Assembly: GCA_007753915.1 (NCBI GenBank)
Contig: CP036352.1
Location: 2,232,001 to 2,296,000, forward strand
Reading direction: 5' to 3'
Length of the DNA stretch: 64,000 nucleotides
Origin: Phycisphaerae bacterium RAS2
GTDB taxonomy: Bacteria > Planctomycetota > Phycisphaerae > UBA1845 > UTPLA1
Position 1 is the first letter of the stretch; the number at the start of each line of letters is the position of its first letter. A program made the position numbers and the translations under genes. Positions 26,012-55,045 of the stretch are shown in pieces. The notes under the pieces are model-generated. The model saw only the letters and a program-made list of their open reading frames with translations, had not been told where the DNA came from and searched no databases.

Positions 26012-28525
26012 ATGCTCGAACTAACGATTCACATCCTTGCGCAGCTGCCCCGATCCGAGCGGATCGAGAACCAGTTGGAACTGGCGAGATGGTCCTCCGG
26101 CAATGCGCTGTTGATCGGCGCCGCGGCCACAACGATCTGTCTGTTTCTGATCGTGCGGATGTACCGCCGGGAAGGGCGTGGCCGCCTGACGGCACGCGCG
26201 CGCGGCGGGTTGATCGCGATTCGCGCGGCCGTGCTGATGATGCTGGGTTTGATCGGCCTCGAGCCGGTCCTCGTCAAGTACATTCATCGACGGCTCGACG
26301 CCGTCACCCTCGTGTTGTCCGATCACTCGGCGAGCATGGCGATTGCGGATCGTTATCGCGACGACGAAGACACGAAGCGCATGCGCCGGGCGGGCATCGA
26401 TCCGGAGCCGGGCAATGTGAGCCGCGCCGAAGTGATCGACTCGCTCTTGAACGTGGGAGATACCTCGCTGCTTCGGTCGCTGGCGATGCGCAACGCCGTT
26501 CGCCGAATTGATTTCGCCCGCAAGCCAATTGGGCGAGAATTCATTCCGCGAAAGAACGAAAGCGAATCGACCTCGCCGATCGCGCGGAGCGGGATTGAAT
26601 CCGCGGAACTCTCCCCGGCCGACACCGACGTGACGGATCTCTCTGCCGCCGTGCGCGGTGCCCTGGATGGCCTTGGCAGCGTTCCCGCATCAGCCGTGGT
26701 GCTGCTCAGTGACGGCAACATCAATCACGGCGAATCACTCGAGACAATCGCCCGGATACTCAAACTGCGAGGCGTGCCGCTCTATGCCGTCGGCATCGGG
26801 GACCCGTCGCCGCCCGTCAATGTCGCGGTGCGCGAAATCGCTGCGCCGCGCCATGCCTTCAAGAACGATCCGTTCAACATCACGGTTCGCTTGGACGCGG
26901 AGGGCCTCGCCGATCAGCCGGTAAACGTTCAGTTGTGGGAACAGGCCGGAACGGCCTCGCCCCGCCTCCTCGCGACTCGCTCGGTTCGCCCATCGGGTCG
27001 TGGAGTCGTTGATCCCGTGACATTTGAGCACAAGGCCTCGTCGCCCGGCGCGCTGGGGTTTGTCGCGCGCGTCGATCCAATCGATCATGAGTCGATCACG
27101 ACGGACAATTCTCGCGCCCTCACTCCCCCCGTACAGATTCTCGATGACAAGGTGCGCGTGCTGCTCATCGCCGGCGCGCCGTCGTACGACTACCGCTTTC
27201 TGGCTCGAATGTTGGAGCGCGACCCGGGGATCGAGGTCAGCCTCTGGCTCCAGTCGGCCGATGCCAACGCTGTGCGCGAGGGCGATGTCGTCATCACGTC
27301 GCTTCCATCCAATCAGGAGGATCTGTTCAAGTACGACGCGCTGATTCTGATGGATGCCGATCCCGCGGAGTTCGATCCGACCTGGGCCAGCCTCGTCGCG
27401 AGCTTTGTCAGCGAGCACGGCGGAGGCCTGCTGATCGAGGCCGGAAACAAATACACCGGACGGTTCCTGCGCAGCCCGCGCACGACCAGCCTCGTCGAGC
27501 TGCTGCCGATCGTTCCTGACCCCGACGCTGAAATCGTCCTCAACGACCTGGGCCAGGTCCAGACCCGAGCCTGGCCGATCACCATTCCTGAACAGGCCGC
27601 GTTTGATCCAATCCTGCGACTTGCCGGCAGCCCGATCGAGAACCGATCGCTCTGGTCGAAACTGGACGGCGTCTATTGGCACTTTCCGGTTCGCCGAGAG
27701 AAGCCGGTGGCATCGGTGCTCATGCGCCACAGCGACCCGCGCATGGTCGGTGCCAGCGGGCCCCAAGTGCTCTTTGCGACGCAGTTCGTCGGCGCCGGGC
27801 GCGCCGCGTGGCTTGGGATCAACTCCACCTGGCGATGGCGACAGGCCGATGAGGCACCCTTCAATCGCTTCTGGATTCAAACAATTCGCTATCTTGTGGA
27901 AGGCCGCCTCGCGGGAGGAAGAAGCCGCGGGCAGATTCTCACCGAGCGCGACGAATTCGAAGTCGGGCAGTCCATCTCACTCACGTTGCGCGCCCTCGAT
28001 GCGCGTTTCTCCCCCATCATCGCACCCGATCTTGAAGTGCGGCTGGAAGAACCGGCGAGCGACGACGGCGCGAACCAGCCAACCTCCGCGGAGAACTCGG
28101 TTGCGAAAGGACCCGCTCGCACGATTCAGGCCGTACCCATCCCCGGGCGCGACGGATATTTCCAGGCGCGCTTCACGGCTGATCGCCCTGGGACATACCG
28201 CGTTGCGTTTACGTCGCCGGGGATGGATGGCGCCGCGCCGTCTTCGGTGATCGCGCGAGAAATCCCCGTCGTCCGCCCAGACCTGGAGATGCGCGGCACC
28301 GCGATGAATCGCGCTGCCCTGGAGCAACTCGCCGCGGCAACAGGCGGGCGATACCTCCATGTCGATGAAGCTCGGCAACTTCCGGAGCTGATCCCCGACG
28401 CCGGCCGAACGCAGGTGACCCGAGAACGCCCCCGGCCTCTCTGGGACAACGGGACCGTCTTTGCGATTCTCCTGGTGCTCCTTAGCGCGGAGTGGATCTT
28501 GCGCAGACAGGCCCGGTTGCTATGA
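26012..28525 (+). CDS. Large membrane-anchored VWA protein with a glutamine-amidotransferase-like domain
   Basis: 837 aa. Two N-terminal helices (about 28-50 and 66-88) are followed by a VWA domain with MIDAS residues D-H-S-A-S near residue 105 and a second VWA strand with LLSDGNINHG near 230. A beta-sandwich comes next, then a class-I glutamine-amidotransferase-like fold (VRVLLIAGAPSYDYRFLARML and FVSEHGGGLLIEAGNK, about 380-490). No nucleophilic Cys occupies the elbow, so this domain is presumably non-catalytic. A C-terminal helix (FAILLVLLSAEWILRR) ends the protein. The architecture is typical for planctomycete Bat-type operons. Confidence 0.85.
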   Translation: MLELTIHILAQLPRSERIENQLELARWSSGNALLIGAAATTICLFLIVRMYRREGRGRLTARARGGLIAIRAAVLMMLGLIGLEPVLVKYIHRRLDAVTLVLSDHSASMAIADRYRDDEDTKRMRRAGIDPEPGNVSRAEVIDSLLNVGDTSLLRSLAMRNAVRRIDFARKPIGREFIPRKNESESTSPIARSGIESAELSPADTDVTDLSAAVRGALDGLGSVPASAVVLLSDGNINHGESLETIARILKLRGVPLYAVGIGDPSPPVNVAVREIAAPRHAFKNDPFNITVRLDAEGLADQPVNVQLWEQAGTASPRLLATRSVRPSGRGVVDPVTFEHKASSPGALGFVARVDPIDHESITTDNSRALTPPVQILDDKVRVLLIAGAPSYDYRFLARMLERDPGIEVSLWLQSADANAVREGDVVITSLPSNQEDLFKYDALILMDADPAEFDPTWASLVASFVSEHGGGLLIEAGNKYTGRFLRSPRTTSLVELLPIVPDPDAEIVLNDLGQVQTRAWPITIPEQAAFDPILRLAGSPIENRSLWSKLDGVYWHFPVRREKPVASVLMRHSDPRMVGASGPQVLFATQFVGAGRAAWLGINSTWRWRQADEAPFNRFWIQTIRYLVEGRLAGGRSRGQILTERDEFEVGQSISLTLRALDARFSPIIAPDLEVRLEEPASDDGANQPTSAENSVAKGPARTIQAVPIPGRDGYFQARFTADRPGTYRVAFTSPGMDGAAPSSVIAREIPVVRPDLEMRGTAMNRAALEQLAAATGGRYLHVDEARQLPELIPDAGRTQVTRERPRPLWDNGTVFAILLVLLSAEWILRRQARLL

Positions 28526-48244: not shown

Positions 48245-48440
48245 ATGCCCCGCGGCGTTCCCATGAGGCTGGAGACCAATACATTACGAAACAATGGCAT
48301 TGGCGGATCGGTGAATCCATCGGCCTTTTTGAGTGAACGAATTGAGGGAATGGGTAGCGATTTCGCTTCGATCCGAGCCTCGGCCATCAGGGAGCGGGTT
48401 CTTGGTGTGGGGAACTCCGAGCCCGCCCGCCACGGCGGAT

Positions 48441-48474
48441 CTGCGACTTGCTGACGCACGCGGCTCGGTTCAAT
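48441..48474 (-). repeat. Dispersed GAACCGAGCCGC-family repeat, copy 4
   Basis: On the minus strand it reads AATTGAACCGAGCCGCG then TGCGTCAGCAAGTCGCAG, closely matching the element at 10666-10699. It lies in the 378-nt gap between ahcY and the coiled-coil gene; nothing else was recognised there apart from the ahcY promoter. Confidence 0.65.
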
Positions 48475-52935: not shown

Positions 52936-53682
52936 GTGACCGCACCCTTTGAACCACGCATCTCCATCGCCCTGCCGCTCATCGAGAGCGAGCCGCATCC
53001 CTGCTCGTACCTGCCGGGGCGCACGGCTGTCACCGAGTATTCCGTGCCCGGAGCGTTCGCGCCGATCGGAGCCATCCCACCGCTGACCGCGGAAGATTAT
53101 CAGGCGTTGATGGATGCGGGCTTTCGTCGAAGCGGCATCGCAGTCTATCGCACCGCCTGCGATTCGTGTCGCGAATGCGTCCCGATCCGCGTGCCGGTGG
53201 CAGCTTTCCGCCCGAGCCGTTCACAGCGACGCGCATGGCGGCGCAACCAGGATGTCACTTTGCAAAGCGGCAAGCCGCACGCCAGCGAGGAGAAGTATCG
53301 CATCTTCGCCGCCTACCAGCGCGAGCATCACGAATCGGACACGGTCGATTCCTACTCCCAGTTCAGAGATTTCCTGTATCGCTCGCCGGTGCAGTCGCTG
53401 GAGATGGTTTATCGCGTAGGATCGGCCATCGCCGGCGTCGGAATCGTAGATGTCGCGTCGCAATCGCTGTCGAGTGTGTACTTCTATTTCGACCCGGTCC
53501 ACGCACGCCGCAGTCTCGGCATTTTCAGCGCGCTAATGGAGATCGACCTCTGCCGGCAGATGGGTAAGCCGTACTGGTACGCGGGCTATTACATCCGCGA
53601 GTGTGATCGCATGAATTACAAGGCGAGGTTTGAACCGTGTGAATTGCTTTTGGCAGATGGGAATTGGCGATCCTTCTCATAG
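52936..53682 (+). CDS. bpt: Aspartate/glutamate leucyltransferase (arginyl-tRNA-protein transferase family)
   Basis: 248 aa from a GTG. The N-terminal region has CSYLPGRTAVTEYSVP, then GFRRSGIAVYRTACDSCRECVPIRVPV (residues 61-88), whose Cys cluster is typical of the family. The C-terminal N-acetyltransferase-like fold shows SSVYFYFDPVHARRSLGIFSAL then YWYAGYYIRECDRMNYKARFEPCELL. The enzyme moves Leu (bacterial Bpt) or Arg (eukaryotic ATE1) from tRNA onto acidic N-termini, feeding proteins to ClpS/ClpAP. Length and motifs fit bacterial Bpt. It is monocistronic. Confidence 0.9.
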   Translation: MTAPFEPRISIALPLIESEPHPCSYLPGRTAVTEYSVPGAFAPIGAIPPLTAEDYQALMDAGFRRSGIAVYRTACDSCRECVPIRVPVAAFRPSRSQRRAWRRNQDVTLQSGKPHASEEKYRIFAAYQREHHESDTVDSYSQFRDFLYRSPVQSLEMVYRVGSAIAGVGIVDVASQSLSSVYFYFDPVHARRSLGIFSALMEIDLCRQMGKPYWYAGYYIRECDRMNYKARFEPCELLLADGNWRSFS

Positions 53683-53713
53683 TGTAGAGACTTGAAATGT
53701 TGTGGCTGATCCC

Positions 53714-53832
53714 AGCCCCGAGCGCAAGCGAGTGGGCACCCGGTGCAATCAATCTTACATTCGTGGTAATTACGGTGGGAGGTGGTTGTCCCCTTATGTC
53801 CCGTCGGTGCCCGCTCGCTTGCGCTCGGGGCT
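53714..53832. repeat. 119-bp element with 27-bp terminal inverted repeats (MITE-like)
   Basis: The left arm (53714-53740, starting AGCCCCGAGCGCAAGCGAG) and the right arm (53806-53832) are inverted copies that differ at one base. The spacer is 65 nt with no ORF. The right arm runs exactly up to the stop codon of the alanine racemase gene. A transcript through it would fold into a very stable hairpin and could end transcription from both convergent genes. Confidence 0.8.
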
Positions 53833-55045
53833 AGGAATGATGCGGACTTGCTCGCTCCACCCGCTGCCCCAGCAGGCACGTCACCTCATAGGGAATCGTG
53901 CCGAGTCTCGTGGCAATGGCCTGCACCGAGTTCGGCGCGGCGGGGTCGTCGCTGATGATCGTCACATCACAGCCCGAATTGATGGGTCCGGCCGCGCCAA
54001 TCACATCCGTCAAATCCACCGCCATCTGATCCATGCTCACCCGCCCCACCACCGGCGCGGCCGCGCCGCAGACCGTCACAACGGCCCGGTTCGACAGCGC
54101 CCGCAGGAACCCGTCGAAATACCCCATCGGCACGATACCCAGCTTCGTCGGCCGCTTCGTCACAAACGTCCGCCCGTAGCCGACGCAGTGACCGACCGGG
54201 AGGTCCTTCACCGCCGTCAGGTGCGACACGAGCCGCAGGCACGGGCGCAAGTCAATCCGCTCGCGCATGTGCAGCGCGGGCCAGTAGCCATAGAGCGCCA
54301 GGCCCGGCCGCACCATGTCGTAATGCGCCTCGGGCAGCGTGATCGTCGCGGCGGAATTCGCCAGGTGTCTGATGACGCCCGGAGGCAGGAAGTCGCCCGC
54401 GCGAGCCAGCGACTCGGCGAAGACCGCCTGCTGGTGTTGCACGAGATCGCGCTGCGACGGGTCAAAGTCGGCCATGGCGAAATGCGAATAAATGCCCGCC
54501 AGCCGCAACGACGAACAGGCCCGCACGCGCTGGATCAATGGGAGCAGACCATCCGGCATGACACCCATCCGCCCCATGCCGGTATCGAACTTGATATGTG
54601 CGTCGATTCGCCCGTTCGAGGCCCGCGCCGCCGCGCCACCCGTAGGTCGGGTCACGGACCCGACATTCCCCACTGCGCCGCCCCGCTCCTCCACGACGCG
54701 CACCGCGGCCTCGTCCGCCACGGTGATCGTCAACCCATGCTGCACGATCGCCGTCAGCCGCTCATTGCGCTCGGCCGCATCCACCGTCGCCAACACGCTG
54801 CCCAGCACCAGAATCGGCCGCGTCCACCCCGTCGCGCGCAGCTCGACCGCCTCCGGCACCGTCGCCACCGCCGCCATGTCGGCCCCGGCCTCGTGCAACA
54901 CCGGCGCGACGATCCGCACGCCGTGGCCGTACGCATCGGCCTTCAGCGGCGCGCAGAACTTTGCCGCGCCGGCCGCAGCGCGCAGCGCGCGGTAGTTATG
55001 CCGCAGTGCGTCAGGATTGACTTGTGCGATGAGGTCGCTTCGCAT
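53831..55045 (-). CDS. alr: Alanine racemase
   Basis: 404 aa. The PLP lysine is K35 in PLKADAYGHG. Later signatures are the Tyr in GYGRTF (near residue 290), VPMGYFDGF, and GRVSMDQMAVDLTD. The N-terminal barrel and C-terminal beta domain are both present. The enzyme makes D-alanine for peptidoglycan, in agreement with evidence that planctomycetes have a murein wall. The start has TTGATG-N17-TACGAT upstream. The stop codon coincides with the end of the inverted-repeat element. Confidence 0.93.
   Translation of the reverse strand: MRSDLIAQVNPDALRHNYRALRAAAGAAKFCAPLKADAYGHGVRIVAPVLHEAGADMAAVATVPEAVELRATGWTRPILVLGSVLATVDAAERNERLTAIVQHGLTITVADEAAVRVVEERGGAVGNVGSVTRPTGGAAARASNGRIDAHIKFDTGMGRMGVMPDGLLPLIQRVRACSSLRLAGIYSHFAMADFDPSQRDLVQHQQAVFAESLARAGDFLPPGVIRHLANSAATITLPEAHYDMVRPGLALYGYWPALHMRERIDLRPCLRLVSHLTAVKDLPVGHCVGYGRTFVTKRPTKLGIVPMGYFDGFLRALSNRAVVTVCGAAAPVVGRVSMDQMAVDLTDVIGAAGPINSGCDVTIISDDPAAPNSVQAIATRLGTIPYEVTCLLGQRVERASPHHS

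Follow-up and report, generated by a model that had tools for sequence, protein, structure and literature searches.

The bpt-alr intergenic element

The window analysed, a 64,000-nucleotide stretch of the genome of Phycisphaerae bacterium RAS2, carries two convergent genes: bpt (52936-53682, forward strand), which encodes an amino acid-tRNA-protein transferase with the Pfam domains ATE_N and ATE_C, and alr (53831-55045, reverse strand), which encodes an alanine racemase with the domains Ala_racemase_N and Ala_racemase_C. Both genes are confirmed by these domains, and the short inverted-repeat element that the first-pass annotation placed between them is confirmed as well. The left core arm, AGCCCCGAGCGCAAGCGAGTGGGCACC (53714-53740), has an inverted partner at 53806-53832; on re-reading, the arms are indeed 27 nt long, match at 26 of 27 positions in inverted orientation and lie 65 nt apart, and an inverted-repeat search stretches them to 31 nt with 94% matching (53710-53740 and 53806-53836). 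In this longer form the left arm (forward strand) is comprised of the foot TCCCAG, the imperfect hairpin GCCCC-GA-GC-GCAA-GC-GA-G-t-GGGC and a final ACC, followed by the 65-nt spacer (53741-53805), whose length is close to that of four other doublets in the genome. The right arm (reverse strand) has the foot CCTAG, and the TAG in this foot is the stop codon of alr, at which the right arm had been reported to end; the stop codon of alr is thus supplied by the arm.

The element folds into a very stable hairpin on both strands (RNA fold z-scores of -7.45 on the forward and -9.85 on the reverse strand), and 0 of 200 shuffles folded as well on either strand. Together with the convergent setting, this would suit a bidirectional terminator or mRNA-3'-end hairpin that is kept for its function and whose repeat origin is incidental; the lack of a T-run after either arm argues against such a role, which we consider unlikely in view of this and of the genomic evidence presented below. 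A terminator scan of the element, which allows loops of only 3-8 nt and to which a 65-nt loop is invisible, returned none. An RNA gene or regulatory RNA could be suspected from weak Rfam matches to MIR156 (31 and 26.1 bits). These lie under the gathering score of 62 and concern a microRNA family, against which any long hairpin may score, and are here taken as hairpin artefacts; since the spacers of the doublets are also unrelated, an RNA gene is given almost no credence.

Copy number, consensus and genomic context of the arms

The genome searched (G000) is a single contig of 4,324,589 bases. BLAST with 151 nt of the element gave 74 rows, many of which represent one arm matched by both query arms, and a scan of the loci fetched around these hits identified 31 arms with at most 5 mismatches to a 23-nt core. 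A covariance model built from the 31 arms, which match it by construction, gave at least 44 matches at E≤1, at least 37 of them with E<2e-5, with 150 of 6727 first-look candidates scored. The repeat, whose copy number had been left open in the first-pass annotation, is multicopy by either count. The alignment of the 31 arms displays an invariant C..AG foot, followed by GCCCCGAGCGCNAGCGAGYGGGC and ACC; the foot conforms to CNNAG in 31/31 arms and to GTAG in none. The exact string GAGCGCAAGCGAG occurs 6 times in the genome, versus 0 for the reversed pattern, and is unremarkable in the window alone at two mismatches (7 found versus 6.5 expected). The minimum-energy fold of a single arm is an interrupted hairpin (GCCCC..GC-loop-GC..G.GGGC), and as DNA this fold is no more stable than those of shuffles (z -0.56 and 0.05).

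Gene context was assigned for 26 rows: 12 lie between convergent, 9 between tandem and 2 between divergent genes, and 3 overlap a predicted gene. The rows correspond to 25 places (11, 9, 2 and 3, respectively) when the two arms flanking a transposase gene are counted as one. The genes were predicted with a codon-score caller trained on the window, which is rough, takes its background from the window alone and missed the transposase gene itself. With 22 of the 25 places between predicted genes, compared with a non-coding share of 9.4% in the window (p 4e-20), the family is composed, like REPs, of short palindromic, multicopy and mostly extragenic units. Convergent gene pairs hold 11 of the 22 intergenic places versus 21% of the intergenic length in the window (p 0.002), an over-representation that would favour a terminator function, against which stand the 9 tandem and 2 divergent places and the 3 of 25 that overlap a predicted gene.

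Inverted doublets and single arms

Five inverted doublets were found in the genome, at 862558, 1453253, 2285715 (the window element), 2455595 and 2815086. Measured from AG to CT they are, in this order, 115, 117, 119, 117 and 119 nt long, with core-to-core gaps of 67, 69, 71, 69 and 71 nt, and their arms are identical at 21-22 of 23 positions. The family thus contains inverted doublets with the constrained spacing of REPINs, although 18 of the 31 arms are singlets, a count from which the doublet arms (ten), the arm at 547006 and the two transposase-flanking arms are excluded. At 547006 a sixth doublet pairs a normal arm with a longer one. The singlets do not look like decayed doublets: no partner was found within 130 nt, except perhaps at 1396056 and apart from the long arm at 547006.

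Once the outer 10 nt per side, which are arm tails such as ACCCGGTGC, are excluded, no word longer than 7 nt is common to the five doublet spacers in either orientation, and spacer folding compared with shuffles gives no signal (z -1.54 to 1.66). The spacers being unrelated, the doublets are not simple copies of one another. The most unusual property of the family, observed in five doublets only, is that doublet length hardly varies while the spacers are unrelated. Perhaps it is single REP arms that are copied, and a doublet forms when a second arm lands on the opposite strand at an approximately fixed distance (67-71 nt between cores), a suggestion that we put forward tentatively and with more doubt than conviction. 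Arms would then be homogeneous while the DNA between them differs from doublet to doublet, and the enzyme, not inheritance of the doublet, would set the spacing, unlike in REPINs, which are thought to be copied as a unit.

Target-site duplications, a check proposed in the first-pass annotation, were looked for in the five doublets: none reached 5 nt, and none of 3-8 nt was consistent across them. Near the ends, four doublets have direct repeats of at most 3-4 nt, at offsets that vary, and the fifth has none. These observations bear on a classical DDE-type MITE, that is, an element with terminal inverted repeats moved by cut-and-paste with target-site duplication. Such an origin would fit a short, non-coding, multicopy sequence with inverted ends; it is made highly improbable by the small and irregular direct repeats, by the many single arms, each of which can fold as a hairpin by itself, and by the gene found between arms elsewhere in the genome, which is of the HUH/Y1 type.

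A second REPIN-like doublet, of mixed type, lies in the window at 48371-48471: its left arm (ATCCGAGCC..AGGGAGCGGGTT) belongs to REP family 2, and its right arm is long and includes CCGCCACGGCGG. It resembles a copy at genome position 542068, and an inverted-repeat search at 48371-48471 found no simple inverted pair.

An arm-flanked Y1 transposase and its homologues

A profile search with PF01797 located nine Y1-type places in the genome, eight of them above the cut-off. One is a gene for a 165-aa HUH/Y1 transposase (P0001, contig C1, 1637361-1637855; the frame starts with TTG), which is bounded by arms of the family at 1637274 (forward) and 1637918 (reverse), in the same inward layout as in the doublets. 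The protein displays the motifs NHVH and YVMDGQ (HUH and Y----Q). The related transposase that the first-pass annotation proposed to look for is thus present between the same arms, and its suggestion of a transposase-dependent miniature element is supported by the multicopy arms, the arm-flanked Y1 gene and the lack of longer target-site duplications. The position of family arms on either side of a transposase gene also argues against an element kept as a terminator. P0001 scores 21 bits against the NCBIfam model REP_Tyr_transpos (NF047646; cut-off 80) and 22.3 bits against transpos_IS200 (cut-off 55); because of the CNNAG foot and the former cut-off, the system does not qualify as GTAG/RAYT proper.

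Arms of this kind are present at 2 of the 9 Y1 places. A second Y1 gene, at 2706306 and 38% identical to P0001, is accompanied by a perfect inverted pair of 32 nt with a different sequence, ATCCGAGCCGCGACCGTCAGGGAGCGCCGAGT; this would be expected if every transposase had a separate REP family. The Y1 gene at 27272 (49% identical to P0001) has no flanking inverted pair. Another inverted pair, GCCGACGGATTGCAATCCGTCGGCTTC, flanks a Y1-like frame at 3207543 (L045), which is more distant and scores under the Pfam cut-off.

A contig search confirmed 194 relatives of P0001, of which 80 were kept. Judging from their titles, 77 of the 80 belong to what we take to be planctomycete taxa; among the other three, two titles say only bacterium and one Myxococcales. 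An inverted pair scoring at least 15 within 350 nt was found for 56 of the 80 homologues, and these pairs differ between lineages. For a control, the comparison was restricted to 75 homologues having 200 nt or more on either side: 54 of the 75 real flanks contained an inverted pair, versus 0 of the 63 flanks that could be shifted by 700 nt. The motif AG-stem-GNNA-stem is common to 47 of the 56 homologue arms. Among 43 distinct arms of equal length (9 of the 56 lacked the motif, 1 of odd length was dropped and 3 duplicates were merged), covariation exceeds that of 2000 shuffles at stem pairs 2, 3 and 4 and is absent at pairs 5-12, and pair 1 does not vary; the loop-anchored test is biased towards a hairpin and towards pairs near the loop, since the arms were picked by the motif. 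The planctomycete extragenic palindromes mentioned in the first-pass annotation are in keeping with the arms of similar kind found next to the homologous transposases and in related genomes.

The matched stretches of 6 of the 80 homologues contain a stop codon; among the 74 stop-free ones, HxH is present in 73 and Y-4-Q in 66. Of 50 homologues compared at E≤0.01, 45 match the REP_Tyr_transpos model and 49 the IS200 model, the first of the 50 with 20.5 and 19.7 bits, respectively. P0001 itself found no transposase among PDB sequences, and a profile of the 50 homologues placed four transposase sequences at the top (E 0.0016-0.029), with SETD2 chains appearing from 0.074 among further transposases; folds were therefore compared instead. 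The predicted structure of the homologue L058 (pLDDT 95.1), which is 47% identical to the protein of this genome, matches the IS608, ISDra2 and IS200-type transposases with Z 13.4-14.5 and TnpA_REP (4er8) with Z 10.8, while unrelated folds begin at Z 8.3. The modelled fold of this homologue is that of an HUH/Y1 enzyme.

Comparison with a congener and other relatives

Among 40 relatives, G001 is the only genome of the same genus. It contains 4 arms and is without a close transposase, the best match (36%) lying within an 867-aa frame. Since bpt and alr are not neighbours in G001, where a long distance separates them, no clean empty site is available for the bpt-alr element. Neither the bpt nor the alr end carries an arm in this congener, a further point against a conserved terminator, and the alr stop lies at the same codon, which is TGA in G001 and the TAG of the arm foot in the window. 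A single copy at a conserved position, which according to the first-pass annotation would have left a terminator only, is excluded by the many copies and by the absence of the repeat from both gene ends in this one congeneric genome.

The other loci compared were 862558, 1453253, 2815086, 547006 and the transposase locus, leaving out 2455595. The four doublet sites among these aligned on both sides, with flanks 81-91% identical, and all four are without a doublet in G001; at the transposase locus the right flank alone aligned; exact junctions could not be drawn because the intergenic remainder is too diverged. The absence of the doublets may also reflect loss in G001. At the 1453253 site the corresponding intergenic region of the congener contains a hairpin-like sequence of a different kind, which would again be in keeping with a terminator function. 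The G001 singlet at 1783437 is orthologous to the singlet at 3848111 of this genome, indicating that some copies were inherited.

At E≤1e-4 the covariance model, the stricter of the two approaches, found 4, 14, 4 and 14 hits in G001, G011, G030 and G032, where pattern matching found 4, 47, 74 and 30, respectively. Over 41 genomes, arms and transposase are associated no more than suggestively: at least 4 pattern matches occur in 9 of the 22 genomes that have a P0001 match (E≤1e-8) and in 2 of the 19 that have none. Some relatives carry arm-like sites but no close transposase, with 11 sites in G020 and 184 in G038. Several of the G038 sites (≤3 mismatches) form same-strand pairs about 94 nt apart, in a genome with no P0001 homologue at E≤1e-8.

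Relation to known systems and proposed mechanism

The arm-flanked transposase, the homologous transposases paired with arms and the absence of the doublets in G001 together lead to the reading that the bpt-alr element is, very likely, a non-autonomous REP doublet (REPIN/BIME-like) of a REPtron with the 165-aa HUH/Y1 transposase, of a kind similar to class 3. REPIN-like working of the family is well supported, and its arms were probably spread by the arm-flanked transposase. Elements of the IS200/IS605 family (IS608, ISDra2) end in hairpins. The Y1 fold modelled for L058 is the same as theirs, and the present family differs from them in its many gene-less arms, in its inverted, near-identical ends and in the low transpos_IS200 score given above.

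The REPs and RAYTs of Pseudomonas fluorescens SBW25 are of the GTAG/RAYT type. The paper that defined REPINs gives a 71-bp spacing for GI and describes spacers as less conserved (PMC3116915). Conserved bases on each side of the spacer are reported there to pair into a hairpin (PMC3116915). The REPs and RAYTs of SBW25 are different from those found here, and the five spacers here share nothing beyond the arm tails and do not fold unusually. The E. coli REP/BIME system with TnpA_REP (4er8) is similar in its imperfect stem with conserved mismatches, which the E. coli REP requires (PMC8266576), and in an HUH/Y1 enzyme that, by the L058 model, has the same fold; it differs in its GTAG foot and in that the transposase here stays far below the REP_Tyr_transpos cut-off.

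The relevant literature found on REPs, RAYTs or MITEs in planctomycetes comprises PMC3733652, which describes GTAG and CGTC REPs in 8 phyla, and PMC6006769. The latter presents the class 3 TnpA_Y1 proteins as rare, found mainly in Planctomycetes, Acidobacteria and Proteobacteria, marked by a Y----Q motif and by atypical REP-like hairpins whose foot is CnGA, and calls for experiments. The transposase described here resembles this class 3 group, and not canonical GTAG REP/RAYT, in the planctomycete host, the Y----Q motif, the lack of a GTAG foot and a gene flanked by atypical REP-like hairpins of which many copies are possible (PMC6006769). With respect to the published CnGA foot the comparison points both ways: the invariant arm part is C..AG, yet CCGA/CCGAG is found at the arm to the left of the transposase gene and in the second REP family. 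Near-constant-length inverted doublets are not mentioned for class 3 in the sections of PMC6006769 considered here.

In the proposed mechanism, the transposase would recognise the arm as a single-stranded hairpin with a CNNAG foot, an interrupted stem and a GNNA loop, and its catalytic tyrosine would cut near the foot. The piece so cut would be joined to other single-stranded DNA, probably at replication forks, without target duplication. At this locus the insertion would have landed at the alr stop codon and provided a new TAG, leaving a strong hairpin in both convergent transcripts; any effect on mRNA ends would be secondary. The element is a representative of a poorly studied, though not unheard-of, kind of bacterial mini-mobile DNA. 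It exemplifies a REP/transposase lineage that is not of the GTAG type and has received little study, and of which dozens of genomes contain matched enzyme-repeat pairs. With such pairs, the joint evolution of a Y1 enzyme and its hairpin and the factors that determine REP doublet spacing become open to study. The bpt-alr element also illustrates that a gene may receive its stop codon from an insertion of this kind.

Several variants of the repeat were also observed. Of the six long arms in this genome, one is weak (E 0.019); all six span 64 nt, compared with the 43 positions of the model. At an apparently orthologous pair of loci (L211, G000 260751; L199, G001 2454063) the arm is long in one species and short in the other, the difference being a 21-nt internal palindromic segment. 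The inner palindrome, GATYCGCCGYGGCGGRCGAG, is also found outside arms, with 63 genome matches in all at ≤3 mismatches versus 6 for the reversed pattern. Further repeat-like intergenic runs lie beside the elements at L002 and L010 and at the bpt 3' end of G001 (AATAGCGAATGG.., GAATGTAGAAAGG; in G001, CTCTCCCTCTTGGGGAGAGG...GGGTGAGGGG).
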